This document shows, piece by piece, positions 139 to 54,332 of a DNA stretch of 64,000 nt. The position numbers and the translations under genes are program-made. Every line of letters starts with the position of its first letter. Position 1 is the first letter of the stretch. Source of the stretch: Glandiceps talaboti (lineage: Eukaryota > Hemichordata > Enteropneusta > Spengelidae); NCBI RefSeq assembly GCF_964340395.1, contig NC_135549.1, positions 9,433,342 to 9,497,341 of the forward strand, written 5' to 3'. The notes beneath the pieces were generated by a model. The model saw only the letters and a program-made list of their open reading frames with translations. It ran no database searches and was not told the DNA's origin.

Positions 139-1428
139 GGCTCGTCGCCTAAATACGGTCATAATAATAACATAACAAACGTCAATCTACTAAAGAGACA
201 CTGGAATGGCTAATTCTGTGCTAAAAGTTTGGATAGGACTGAAATCTATTGCATCGTTACACAAATACATGCGTACGAACCAGTGTACGATTGACTTTCA
301 CTACTTTGAATAGGTATCAGCTTGTGTCAGTGTACATCTGAAAGTCACATGACATAGCTCGCCCAATAACAAGTAAGTGTGGTCGTTTCCTTTCCCACAC
401 TGTGTCAAGGGCTAATTCGGAAAGTGACCTGAAATCTTTTATCAAACAGTTGCAGGGGGCGATTATTTCGTCACAAATCTGTGACTCACAGTCTTCCAAC
501 TCGAGAAAAAGTCACAAACAGTAATACGGAAAATGGACTGCAAATGAACCACACGCAATACAAATATTACTGAAAAAACACACGCATCCACAACAAATAT
601 GTTTTCATTGTTTCCGTAATGTCGAAACTAATACAAACTTTAAAAAATTGAAAAGTGTTGTTCGAGATCTGGTCTTGTGATGAGCTCAAAATACACAAAA
701 TTTTCTGACATATGTATGAGATATTGATATGATAATAATAACAATAATAATAACAATAAAGAAGATTTTATAGGGTGCCTAATCTCTGCAGGCAGAGCTA
801 GAGGCGCAGAAGTAAATGGAAAGAAAATTACTGTATGGTAAGAGGAAAAGTGAATTCACAGACACTGGATACTAGGCAATTGGAGAAGGCTGAGACTAAT
901 GTTTAAAGAGATAGGTCATCGTATAATGGGATAAACAATGTAGTTTTGCTTCATTTAGTATATAGGTAGGCCTATATACATAACTACACAGACGGTATTA
1001 TCACAAACGTTTACACCACATACATTCACAGTCTACACAATACGTTATAAAAACATTCTAATCTTGTGTCAAGCCACAATGGTTGATCTAAAACTTTCCA
1101 CACAGCTAAAGCATATCCAATAGTGACTAGTATTGGTCTGAACAGTCAATCTATACCTGTCTGTGATTTAATACATGGAATAAATGATAAACCGTGTGGA
1201 ATGTGTTCTTTTATTTTGCTTCGTTACAATATACATCGTATGTTTTAATATGTGTGTTGATCGTATTATTGTTCGTGTTCGTATCAAGCAATTCAATATC
1301 CCACTGTACCCGGCGTTGCTATTTACAAAATCGTCAAAGCGCCATCAAGATATGTGACAACTAAAATAAATTTATTTCTATTTCAATATCTGATCAAAAC
1401 TTGCATTAGTTCACCATAAGCGATCATG
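139..1428. other. Non-coding, AT-rich
   Basis: No convincing coding exon. A 60-codon open stretch on the minus strand at 317-499 shows no domain and no clear splice sites. This would be the promoter and 5' flank of the gene at 1-138 if that start is right, but I see no TATA box or other core element that I would defend. Confidence 0.4.
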
Positions 1429-2180
<752 letters not shown>

Positions 2181-3082
2181 GCTTAAAATATACCCACATT
2201 GACCAATGGAGTACGCTAGATATTAGCTGCAATAATTGTCGCGTTAGTTTTGATTTTGAATTGTTCTTTTGTTTTTGTGTTTCGTTCCGTTGTTTATCCG
2301 CAAAACAAACACAGCAGGATAGAGTAAGTGGTTGCCATTTTGTGTCAATTTGTACAAACGTATATTGTGTACTGTATACGTATATACAGTACAATGAATC
2401 TACTATGTAATGTCCGACTTTCAGTCATCGACTAGGATCGATCAATGAAAAGTTCGAATGTCACATTCAAGTTGAAATGGGGTTTACACGATTTACATAT
2501 ATTTCATATGCGGATTTCACAATCCTCGTATACATAGGAGTTACCGCCAGCTGTTTGATATGGGGCATTATATGGAAGGTATATTGCTGATACATGTATT
2601 ACATGTAATGCTACTGTATGGTGACAATGTATAATACATGATAATTGATATACGTCCTTGAACGCTGTCAAATTTTGTTTATTGTAGTATGTATCGTTGG
2701 ATGACCCAAAATGACGTGCATGTAACCATACTAGGGTATATAATGTTACAAAGACATTTAACGACCCTCAAAACACTTTAGTCCCTGGTTTACACTTCCA
2801 TATAGCCAACGGTGACACCATGCTGTGTTTTCCCGATATTTCAACTTAGTTCGATTTCACACTAAACGGTCTTTACATTCTGTCGACAAAAGTATTATGG
2901 TGTACTGGTATCAAAACCAATATAATGGCCTCTCTAACAGTGATGTTTTTTGGTATACAATTAAGACAGCGGAAACAGTGGTGCTTCAAATATAAAAAAT
3001 CATATACACACAGCTATGATGTAGTCACTCATACCTCAGACCACTATTTCTGTATAGTGGTCTGAGCTCATACTAATAAGCT
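2181..3082. other. Non-coding; one short hairpin
   Basis: No gene is seen. A perfect 13-bp stem with a 6-base loop lies at 3035-3066 (CTCAGACCACTAT, loop, ATAGTGGTCTGAG), just left of the large foldback element. Confidence 0.5.
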
Positions 3083-3091
3083 TACAACCCA
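3083..3091. repeat. Left 9-bp target-site duplication
   Basis: TACAACCCA directly abuts the left terminal inverted repeat of the 2.7-kb element and is repeated exactly at 5784-5792. Confidence 0.9.
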
Positions 3092-3224
3092 GGGTGACCC
3101 TAAAACGAATGACAACCTGAATGACGGAAAACGAATGACAGCATTTCTAGGTGGCAAACAGTGGAATGACACCCTTTTCTACATTCAGTTAGTTGAATGA
3201 CACCCTCTGCACTGTAGAATCACT

Positions 3225-4195
3225 GGAATGACAGCCGCCACTCTATAAAATAAGTGGAATGACAGCATTTTCAATGCTTTGGAACTGGAATGACAGCATT
3301 TCTAGGTGGTAAACAGTGGAATGACACCCTTTTCTACATTCAGTTAGTTGAATGACACACTCTGCACTATAGAACCACTGGAACGACAGCCGTCACTCTA
3401 TAAAATAAGTGGAATGACAGCATTTCTAATGCTTTGGAACTGGAATGACAGCATTTCTAGGTGGTAAACAGTGGAATGACACCCTTTTCTACATTCAGTT
3501 AGTTGAATGACACCCTCTGCACTGTAGAACCACTGGAATGACAGCCGCCACTCTATAAAATAAGTGGAATGACAGCATTTTTAATGCTTTAGAACTGGAA
3601 TGACAGCATTTCTAGGTGGTAAACAGTGGAATGACATCCTTTTCTACAATCAGTTAGTTGAATGACACACTCTGCACTATAGAACCACTGGAATGACAGC
3701 CGCCACTCTATAAAATAAGTGGAATGACAGCATTTTCAATGCTTTGGAACTGGAATGACAGCATTTCTAGGTGGTAAACAGTGGAATGACACCCTTTTCT
3801 ACATTCAGTTAGTTGAATGACACACTCTGCACTATAGAACCACTGGAATGACAGCCGCCACTCTATAAAATAAGTGGAATGACAGCATTTCTAATGCTTT
3901 GGAACTGGAATGACAGCATTTCTAGGTGGTACACAGTGGAATGACACCCTTTTCTACATTCAGTTAGTTGAATGACACCCTCTGCACTGTAGAACAACTG
4001 GAATGACAGCCACCACTCTATAAAATAAGTGGAATGACAGCATTTTTAATGCTTTAGAACTGGAATGACAGCATTTCTAGGTGGTAAACAGTGGAATGAC
4101 ACCCTTTTCTACAATCAGTTAGTTGAATGACACACTCTGCACTGTAGAACCAGTGGAATGACAGCCGCCACTCTATAAAATAAGTGGAATGACAG
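3225..4195 (+). repeat. Left-arm array, 155-bp higher-order repeat
   Basis: The marker GGAATGACAGCCGCC, or its single-base variants, begins at 3225, 3380, 3535, 3690, 3845, 4000 and 4155, exactly 155 bp apart each time. Within a unit the five monomers are each 31 bp long. They are followed respectively by CGCCACTCTATAAAATAAGT, CATTTCTAATGCTTTGGAAC, CATTTCTAGGTGGTAAACAG, CCTTTTCTACATTCAGTTAG and CCTCTGCACTGTAGAACCAC. Single-base variants (ACCCTCTGCACTGTAG against ACACTCTGCACTATAG) partly alternate between neighbouring units, which points to amplification of paired units. Confidence 0.95.
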
Positions 4196-4214
4196 TTCTA
4201 AACCATTGAAAATG

Positions 4215-5735
4215 CTGTAATTCCACTTATTTTATAGAGTGGCGGCTGTCATTCCAGTGGTTCTACAGTGCAGAGTGTGTCATTCAACTAACTGAATGTA
4301 GAAAAGGGTGTCATTCCACTGTTTACCACCTAGAAATGCTGTCATTCCAGTTCTAAAGCATTGAAAATGCTGTCATTCCACTTATTTTATAGAGTGGCGG
4401 CTGTCATTCCAGTGGTTCTACAGTGCAGAGGGTGTCATTCAACTAACTGATTGTAGAAAAGGGTGTCATTCCACTGTTTACCACCTAGAAATGCTGTCAT
4501 TCCAGTTCCAAAGCATTAAAAATGCTGTCATTCCACTTATTTTATAGAGTGGCGGCTGTCATTCCACTGGTTTTACAGTGCAGAGGGTGTCATTCAACTA
4601 ACTGAATGTAGAAAAGGGTGTCATTCCACTGTTTACCACCTAGAAATGCTGTCATTCCAGTTCCAAAGCATTAAAAATGCTGTCATTCCACTTATTTTAT
4701 AGAGTGGCGGCTGTCATTCCACTGGTTTTACAGTGCAGAGGGTGTCATTCAACTAACTGAATGTAGAAAAGGGTGTCATTCCACTGTTTACCACCTAGAA
4801 ATGCTGTCATTCCAGTTCCAAAGCATTAAAAATGCTGTCATTCCACTTATTTTATAGAGTGGCGGCTGTCATTCCAGTGGTTCTACAGAGTAGAGGGTGT
4901 CATTCAACTAACTGAATGTAGAAAAGGGTGTCATTCCACTGTTTACCACCTAAAAATGCTGTCATTCCAGTTCTAAAGCATTGAAAATGCTGTCATTCCA
5001 CTTATTTTATAGAGTGGCGGATGTTATTCCACTGGTTCTACAGTGCAGAGGGTGTCATTCAACTAACTGAATGTAGAAAAGGGTGTCATTCCACTGTTTA
5101 CCACCTAGAAATGCTGTCATTCCAGTTCCAAAGCATTGAAAATGCTGTCATTCCACTTATTTTATAGAGTGGCGGCTGTCATTCCAGTGGTTCTACAGTG
5201 CAGAGGGTGTCATTCAACTAACTGAATGTAGAAAAGGGTGTCATTCCACTGTTCACCACCTAGAAATGCTGTCATTCCAGTTCCAAAGCATTGGAAATGC
5301 TGTCATTCCACTTATTTTATAGAGTGGCGGCTGTCATTCCAGTGGTTCTACAGTGCAGAGTGTGTCATTCAACTAACTGATTGTAGAAAAGGATGTCATT
5401 CCACTGTTTACCACCTAGAAATGCTGTCATTCCAGTTCCAAAGCATTGAAAATGCTGTCATTCCACTTATTTTATAGAGTGGCGGCTGTCATTCCAGTGG
5501 TTCTACAGTGTAGAGGGTGTCATTCAACTAACTGAATGTAGAAAAGGGCGTCATTCCACTGTTTACCACCTAGAAATGCTGTCATTCCAGTTCTAAAGCA
5601 TTGAAAATACTGTCATTCCACTTATTTTATAGAGTGGCGGCTGTCATTCCACTGGTTTTACAGTGCAGAGGGTGTCATTCAACTAACTGAATGTAGAAAA
5701 GGGTGTCATTCCACTGTTTACCACCTAGAAATGCT
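4215..5735 (-). repeat. Right-arm array, inverted 155-bp higher-order repeat
   Basis: The complementary marker GGCGGCTGTCATTCC begins at 4241, 4396, 4551, 4706, 4861, 5016, 5171, 5326, 5481 and 5636, again every 155 bp. This arm has ten units against seven on the left, so the palindrome is asymmetric by three units. Unit 5016 carries two substitutions (GGATGTTATTCC). Confidence 0.95.
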
Positions 5736-5783
5736 GTCATTCGTTTTCCATCATTCAGGTTGTCATTCGTTTTAGGGTCACCC

Positions 5784-5792
5784 TACAACCCA
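5784..5792. repeat. Right 9-bp target-site duplication
   Basis: TACAACCCA follows the right terminus GGGTCACCC immediately and matches 3083-3091 base for base. Confidence 0.9.
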
Positions 5793-11855
<6,063 letters not shown>

Positions 11856-53288: not shown

Positions 53289-54332
53289 TTATGATGACGA
53301 GTTTGCAGTTGTTGTGCCACTCCTCTTTTTCATTTCACTGTCCAGTGTTTTGGCTTCATCTGGCACATACATGAACTCAGTTGGTATTTTTTGGCTCAGT
53401 TCCTCTAAACTGTTAATCATCTTAATCTTCCGAGTAAGCTTGCTGCTCACGAATGGTTGAATAACTTTAAGAGCTGCTTTCATCCAGAACGACGGATGAA
53501 CAACGTAAATGCTGCAAACATTCTTGCGAAGTTTTCGGTCCAGCACCGCATACATTTTCTTCAGCCACCAAAGTGGTGGCAAAGTCTTTCTCGACCTTCC
53601 ACAAAAATAAACCAACACATAGCCGCTAGTTGCTAAAATATCAACTGTAATAATGGCGTGGAGAAATAGATTTTCCACTGTGTACATGTAATGTGGCGAT
53701 TTCTTACGTCGTTGAGGCAAATCGTGGCCTGAGATTGAGAATAAGGCGGTTTTGTCGTTTGGACCCAATGTGCCGCCGTACGAAACGATCCCCGTATATT
53801 GTTTGACCACATTTAGATCGACATGATAAAGCTTTTCGCCCAGTTTCACTGTTTGATAATGTTCGTCGTCTTCTCTCGCTTCATCAAACACCATTTGTAA
53901 TGCGTCTGTATCGTCTGACAGCGTTGATAAAGGAATGTAATCGTCCCAATCGAATTCATCCTTGCATTCGTAGTCACTCCATGAATCGGCTTCGGACGCC
54001 GACGACATACTTTCTCCGCCAGCATCGGCAGAGACTTGGTTTTTCCAAATTTCATCTTCATAATCTGTATCAATTGTTGTAAATTCACCAATTTCGTCGC
54101 TTTCTTCATCATACGCCGTTGTAATTTCTCTTATTATACCGTCCACATCAAGAAATTTTTCAGATTCCTCTCCGCCTTTTTTATGTAGGTCATTTGGACA
54201 GTCCTCATTGTCACAGTCCTGGGCCTGTAGTTCACACATGGGCGTTGTCTTAGTGTCCAACGGGTCACCAAGTTGATTTTGGGTTGATTCAATACTAAAC
54301 TCGTCTTCTTCGTGGCTCTCACCCATTGTCAC
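53289..54332 (-). CDS. BCH-domain protein, BNIP2/Caytaxin type, single exon
   Basis: One uninterrupted frame of 347 codons. Residues 1-155 are very acidic and Ser-rich. Residues about 165-335 are a BCH (BNIP2/Cdc42GAP homology, CRAL-TRIO-like) domain: VDLNVVKQYTGIVSYGG, then YMYTVENLFLHAIITVDILA, LPPLWWLKKMYAVLDRKLRK, VVHPSFWMKAALKVIQPFVS, SSKLTRKIKMINSLEELSQK and IPTEFMYVPDEAK. All of these follow the order and spacing of BNIP2. Known members bind small GTPases, RhoGAP/GEF proteins or each other, and Caytaxin also binds kinesin light chain. The acidic EFDWDD motif near residue 127 resembles a kinesin-light-chain W-acidic motif. Family genes I know of have several introns, so this copy may be an old retrogene. 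It is intact, with an AATAAA downstream and an AT-rich TATATAAATA-like stretch about 170 bases upstream. Confidence 0.88.
   Translation of the reverse strand: MTMGESHEEDEFSIESTQNQLGDPLDTKTTPMCELQAQDCDNEDCPNDLHKKGGEESEKFLDVDGIIREITTAYDEESDEIGEFTTIDTDYEDEIWKNQVSADAGGESMSSASEADSWSDYECKDEFDWDDYIPLSTLSDDTDALQMVFDEAREDDEHYQTVKLGEKLYHVDLNVVKQYTGIVSYGGTLGPNDKTALFSISGHDLPQRRKKSPHYMYTVENLFLHAIITVDILATSGYVLVYFCGRSRKTLPPLWWLKKMYAVLDRKLRKNVCSIYVVHPSFWMKAALKVIQPFVSSKLTRKIKMINSLEELSQKIPTEFMYVPDEAKTLDSEMKKRSGTTTANSSS

Follow-up and report, generated by a model that had tools for sequence, protein, structure and literature searches.

Foldback elements with tandemly repeated arms have been described in several systems, which are outlined here from the available excerpts of the cited sources. 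The FB elements of Drosophila produce 9-bp target duplications and are built of oppositely oriented five-repeat blocks in variable number; the repeats are 27–31 bp long, CTC is found between the blocks, and the remaining parts are ends of 467–479 bp, a spacer and a middle region (PMC7642927). Members of the MULE superfamily duplicate 8–11 bp of target, and among them Rehavkus is listed with a 9-bp duplication, a PHD finger in the transposase and a minisatellite (PMC6446971, Table 1); in Rehavkus-1_TC of Tribolium, repeats of 164 bp are arranged in tandem in the inverted termini (PMC10218199). Tm1 of Meloidogyne, a Phantom-type MULE foldback element, makes mostly 9-bp duplications, has variable numbers of tandem units in composite inverted ends and, in M. 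incognita, has just one copy that encodes a transposase (PMC3169594). The tandem repeats of Galileo contain extra transposase-binding sites (PMC4079207, PMC3688188), and for Foldback and Phantom elements such a binding-site role of the arrays was in 2013 described as not yet tested (PMC3688188).

The window, that is, the whole analysed stretch of 64,000 nucleotides, contains a foldback element of 2692 bp at 3092–5783, flanked on both sides by the perfect 9-bp direct repeat TACAACCCA. Its features are as follows.

3083–3091, + strand: target site duplication, left copy TACAACCCA, by exact repeat match
3092–5783, no strand assigned: foldback transposon copy, non-autonomous (coding middle absent), by arm pairing, ends and duplication
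3092–3132, + strand: left 41-bp terminal segment, starting GGGTGACCCTAAAACGAATGACAACC, near-invariant among 62 termini
3133–4195, + strand: left arm, consisting of 34 complete 31-bp units (155-bp blocks, order ABCDE) and 9 bases from the start of another E unit
4193–4195, no strand assigned: arm–arm junction with about 3 bp of common sequence, unique to the window copy among 25 gapless copies
4196–4214, no strand assigned: unpaired fold loop, the rest of the right-arm E unit
4193–5742, − strand: right arm, composed of 50 units, each 31 bp, that follow ABCDE order on the − strand
5743–5783, − strand: right 41-bp terminal segment, an inverted copy of the left segment, by comparison of termini
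5784–5792, + strand: target site duplication, right copy TACAACCCA, by exact repeat match

The two ends pair as an inverted repeat in which position 34 is the first mismatch, and pairing of the arms extends over 1070 nt at 96%, leaving 19 nt between them. The arms are unequal in length (34 versus 50 units), and Tandem Repeats Finder returned a 155-bp period with 6.9 copies in the left arm and 10.0 in the right. The 26-bp end occurred twice in the window and never in shuffled sequence (expected 0.00), and a scan of the window for more copies of the end sequence yielded none beyond the element's own two ends. The core GTGGAATGACA, with at most one mismatch, was matched 87 times, where chance would give 1.98 matches on average. 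The element was thus confirmed as real and well above chance. An earlier description made from the letters alone, hereafter the sequence-only reading, had claimed exact 9-bp direct repeats, which are present at both coordinates listed above. It had also described the arms as built wholly of 31-bp monomers in 155-bp blocks; this holds for the arrays and fails for the terminal 41 bp on either side, which lie outside the 31-bp register, with the GAATGAC core at offsets 15, 27 and 41 in the left end and at 15 and 41 in the right. The 19-base loop that it had placed between the arms is no separate sequence: these bases are what is left unpaired of a type-E unit in the right arm, and the arms abut there.

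Other features of the window were also recorded. A second inverted repeat lies at 1477–2141 (arms 1477–1560 and 2058–2141, 94%) and encloses AT-rich microsatellite palindromes (1691–1797/1798–1904, 98%). A single-exon frame at 53289–54332 on the − strand carries CRAL-TRIO and BNIP2 domains and is a relative of the hemichordate "protein prune homolog 2-like"; among named proteins, those closest to it come from Ptychodera flava (62%) and Saccoglossus kowalevskii (59%). On this one protein the host is probably a hemichordate and not an insect, the latter as had been supposed from the look of the sequence.

The assembly of the same genome (590 Mb, 47 contigs) was searched with the 229-bp end. The search gave 687 matches, a number that does not count copies, since many of those listed are repeat units within arms; 39 of 373 candidate regions were scored. 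For detailed analysis, 35 loci were used, namely the window and 34 loci taken from the best end matches, at 97–99% identity to the window end over most or all of it. Because the loci were chosen by best end match, young copies and perfect duplications are favoured in the figures that follow. Both ends were present in 27 of the 35 loci and one end in 8. The complete copies are 936 bp to 27,335 bp long, arm length varies between about 0.1 and about 8 kb, and the middle is absent in 25 of the 27. Median identity over the outer 196 bp was 98.0% among the 62 termini and likewise 98.0% between the two ends of the same copy, and each of the first 60 terminal positions was conserved at 0.97–1.0 among these termini, which were chosen by similarity. 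A scan of viral contigs with the 23-base end gave no match.

These data bear on whether the structure is mobile at all. Long palindromes are prone to assembly error, and several copies (L009, L013/L045, L032, L035, L037 and L042) have runs of N within or next to their arms or middles, the three runs seen whole being 5000, 5000 and 2500 long. A local inverted duplication or an assembly artefact would nevertheless have to account for 27 complete copies spread over many contigs, 26 of them with perfect 9-bp duplications that differ in sequence, and we regard the chance of this explanation as negligible. The single exception, L043, has a 7/9 duplication within an ATGT microsatellite. The evidence therefore supports the window element as a recently mobile DNA transposon, one of many copies of a family. 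The expectations of the sequence-only reading that the structure is a foldback DNA transposon, that other copies exist in the genome, that the duplication length is constant and that movement was recent all agree with these results, the last with the reservation that sampling favoured young copies.

The arms are strikingly regular. Five consensus monomers, A to E, share 16–21 of 31 positions pairwise, and all begin with the 8-base core GAATGACA. In a first arm walk, in which a unit was accepted at ≥ 24/31 and the walk ended at the first failing unit (in both arms of the C8 copy, for example, this was after 9 units), 3261 units were read from 62 arms, with one of 3199 steps out of order and eight length shifts. 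A second walk over the 35 loci, resumed past breaks, read 4510 units; 4385 of the 4388 adjacent steps followed the A-B-C-D-E order and 3 did not, 4378 were exactly 31 bp and one was 34 bp. Breaks longer than 36 bp numbered 55, 19 of them in the C8 copy. Since both the order and the 31-bp step are nearly without exception, the 155-bp block is the amplifying unit. Within the monomers, the 8 core positions varied less than the other 23 (mean 0.33% versus 0.80% over the 3261 units), and none of 20,000 random site relabellings was as extreme; 8 of the 155 sites, all outside the core, varied by more than 5% and were set aside for this comparison. Such low variation is the pattern expected of a protein-binding site, and the core is accordingly described below as a putative one.

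The loss of the middle was examined through the head-to-head arm junctions, of which 18 distinct ones were found in the 25 gapless complete copies. Three junctions recurred, in 5, 3 and 2 copies, every copy having its own duplication; a sixth copy (L011) is one base off the five-copy junction, and the remaining junctions were each seen once. The same junction at different target sites indicates that middle-less copies still move. By raw overlap scores, 12 of the 18 junctions have 1–7 bp of common sequence and 6 contain filler or are unresolved, the L043 junction (−87) being among the unresolved; singly these scores are rough, as L011 and the near-identical common junction were scored +2 and −2. 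The 18 junctions may represent separate losses of the middle, or may in part reflect later re-cutting of the palindrome centre. The junctions are compatible with an interruption of gap repair following excision.

Longer copies with parts of a MULE-like transposase, which the sequence-only reading had proposed to look for, were found. The C8 copy (27,335 bp, with its own 9-bp duplication) holds an Ulp1-PHD frame between its arms, adjoining a gap of 5000 N. The frame matches an Ulp1-type protease (PF02902, E 2e-15), with Ulp1 and SENP chains matched in the PDB, and its end shows a PHD-like C4HC3 pattern by eye, the PF00628 score (E 0.85) being below the cut-off. The genome search with this frame gave 5 matches, including one at C7:14141215 with 97% protein identity and a broken form on C16. 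From C7:14135734 onward (L049, L050), the exact 26-bp family end is followed by a left arm, three coding frames and a right arm. The first of these frames matched no family in the Pfam scan. The second matched MULE (PF10551, E 1.7e-4) at 22.4 bits, below the Pfam cut-off of 27.6, and the IS256 model at E 0.011, far below that model's cut-off. The third matched SWIM (E 0.004), Peptidase_C48 (5.3e-16) and PHD (PF00628, 0.13), the SWIM and PHD scores being below the Pfam cut-offs; its SWIM motif reads C-x-C-x5-C-x-H, and a C4HC3 PHD pattern was recognised by eye at its end. In the second frame, the acidic residues are spaced D-64-D-115-E, with C-x2-H 20 residues past the second D, an order that we take to be MULE-type by a motif rule.

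The C7 copy is not intact, because neither its right end nor a 9-bp partner was recognisable when searched for and a 104-bp tandem duplication lies at the SWIM part; the gene is split over three frames. An insertion, with a frame that looks by eye like reverse transcriptase (L049, 1680–2839, − strand), also breaks up the left arm of this copy, and a reverse-transcriptase fragment is inserted in a gene-bearing copy at L045, 6542–6862, + strand (PF00078, E 5.3e-08). No intact transposase was present among the copies examined, of which the C7:23.00 Mb and C8 copies contain N gaps. The genome search with the DDE frame at E 0.001 gave 3 matches, namely itself and two distant relatives at 28%, so that the frame was found once between family arms; others may be concealed where the C7:23.00 Mb and C8 copies are gapped. 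The two relatives lie at C12:7013158–7013949 and C16:3631600–3632382, where the open frames are 552 and 944 aa long. The middles of the C7:23.00 Mb and C8 copies have 1.6 kb in common at 95.7%, and on the opposite strand of this common part a SAP-like frame was noted (L014, 132–356, − strand; E 7.1e-4, below cut-off). Between the two copies of the Ulp1-PHD part, 11 nonsynonymous and 4 synonymous differences were counted in 419 codons, too few for an inference from pN/pS. Protein searches with this part returned no relative at E 0.001, nor at 0.01 when longer candidates were included. Extension of three loci with one end (L029, L031 and L042), undertaken to look for a coding middle, revealed no partner end and no blastn kinship at 1e-5 with the C8 or C7:23.00 Mb middle. 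Near the one-ended arm of L029, at 163–5990 on the − strand, frames resembling a Ty3/gypsy-like retrotransposon were seen by eye.

Taken with the arms and duplications, the window element is very probably a non-autonomous, middle-deleted derivative of a Rehavkus-like cut-and-paste family of MULEs. The main argument for the DDE-SWIM-Ulp1-PHD gene as driver is its position, since arms of the family flank it in one copy and flank its 3′ part in another. A genome search for MULE at E 0.001 gave 31 matches, all above the Pfam cut-off and 25 of them without a stop, and the DDE frame of the C7 copy was absent from that list; another MULE could thus drive the family, the enclosed gene being a relic or passenger, and it is in keeping with this that the sole DDE frame found between family arms sits in a broken copy. 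None of the 31 matches, however, lies within the 36 fetched stretches, the nearest being about 356 kb away, and the gene and its 3′ part are held between arms of the family in two copies at 97% protein identity, which leaves mobilisation by another MULE improbable.

A Merlin-driven element would share the 9-bp duplication and the GGG at the family ends: Merlin elements, reported in two hemichordates, make 8–9 bp duplications and have 5′-GG ends (PMC8101967, available excerpts). The frames between the C7-copy arms, in contrast, matched MULE and weakly IS256 and no Merlin/IS1016-type model in Pfam or NCBIfam, and Ulp1, SWIM and PHD do not figure in those excerpts; the Merlin reading was set aside as highly improbable. 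An origin from Zisupton/KDZ or from a P/Galileo-type foldback element, the latter suggested by the foldback structure of Galileo (PMC4079207, PMC3688188, available excerpts), was judged extremely improbable and likewise set aside, given the 8-bp duplications described for Zisupton in the excerpted text of PMC12730594 against 9 bp in 26 of 27 complete copies here, and the Pfam scan of the C7-copy frames, in which no THAP/P-type match was obtained.

For the Rehavkus-like family, the following mechanism is proposed. The transposase would bind the core GAATGACA in the monomers. A spacing of 31 bp, close to three turns of the DNA helix, would place the cores along one face of the DNA. The enzyme would cut at the GGG...CCC ends and insert the element with a 9-bp stagger. 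Repair after excision could halt within the arms and rejoin them head to head, with loss of the gene; the middle-deleted derivatives would then be mobilised in trans, and their arm length would be altered by unequal exchange in whole 155-bp steps.

Several stages of the family are preserved in one genome, with two copies carrying gene parts, many middle-less copies and 18 junctions, three of them recurrent, so that the origin of foldback elements becomes readable from sequence. With its strict 31-bp ladder, the family allows a binding-site role of such arrays to be tested directly. For some foldback families, Tetris among them, no transposase is known in the excerpted account of PMC4079207; here, gene parts were found between the arms of the family. 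A literature search on hemichordates, Rehavkus and the domain set revealed no description of such a family in the titles and abstract openings among the matches listed, a body of text in which subscription journals are mostly uncovered.

Compared by description with the excerpted sources, the set of MULE-like DDE, SWIM, Ulp1 and PHD domains points to Rehavkus. Duplications of 9/9 bp in 26 of the 27 complete copies fall within the MULE range and equal the Rehavkus length, and arms of about 0.1 to about 8 kb agree with the long terminal inverted repeats of the superfamily. Rehavkus and the present family are alike in the 9-bp duplication and tandem repeats in the termini; a putative PHD finger, here below the Pfam cut-off, would be a further likeness. 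They differ in that Rehavkus is listed from arthropods and annelids with terminal inverted repeats of 26–400 bp (PMC6446971), whereas the arms here reach kilobases in what is probably a hemichordate, and in that Ulp1 and SWIM, both matched in the gene-bearing copy (SWIM below cut-off), do not appear in the excerpted Rehavkus descriptions. Tm1, as excerpted, resembles the family in its 9-bp duplication, inverted ends of tandem units and single transposase-encoding copy, but has units of 13–15 bp, a FLYWCH finger and terminal motifs of 7 bp that are not inverted. The Drosophila elements Tetris and Galileo share the foldback form; in the accounts available, Galileo is distinguished by a P-type THAP transposase, and Tetris by 8–10 bp duplications and the lack of a known transposase (PMC4079207).

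Likened by its published description, the Drosophila FB element closely matches the structure observed here, both having inverted arms of five-repeat blocks (repeats of about 31 bp) and a 9-bp duplication. The family here is unlike the excerpted FB description in its near-invariant 31-bp units, 41-bp ends and a middle absent in 25 of 27 complete copies; repeats of 27–31 bp with CTC between blocks were not found, 4378 of 4388 adjacent steps measuring 31 bp and one 34 bp. A tentative and somewhat doubtful extension of this likeness is that the five-by-31 design might be a functional device which the FB elements of insects have in common with the present deuterostome family, each arm forming a ladder of phased transposase sites three helical turns apart. 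The ladder would be amplified in 155-bp steps only, and the design would be either ancestral or horizontally transferred within a MULE/Rehavkus lineage whose transposase also has SWIM, a SUMO-type protease and PHD.
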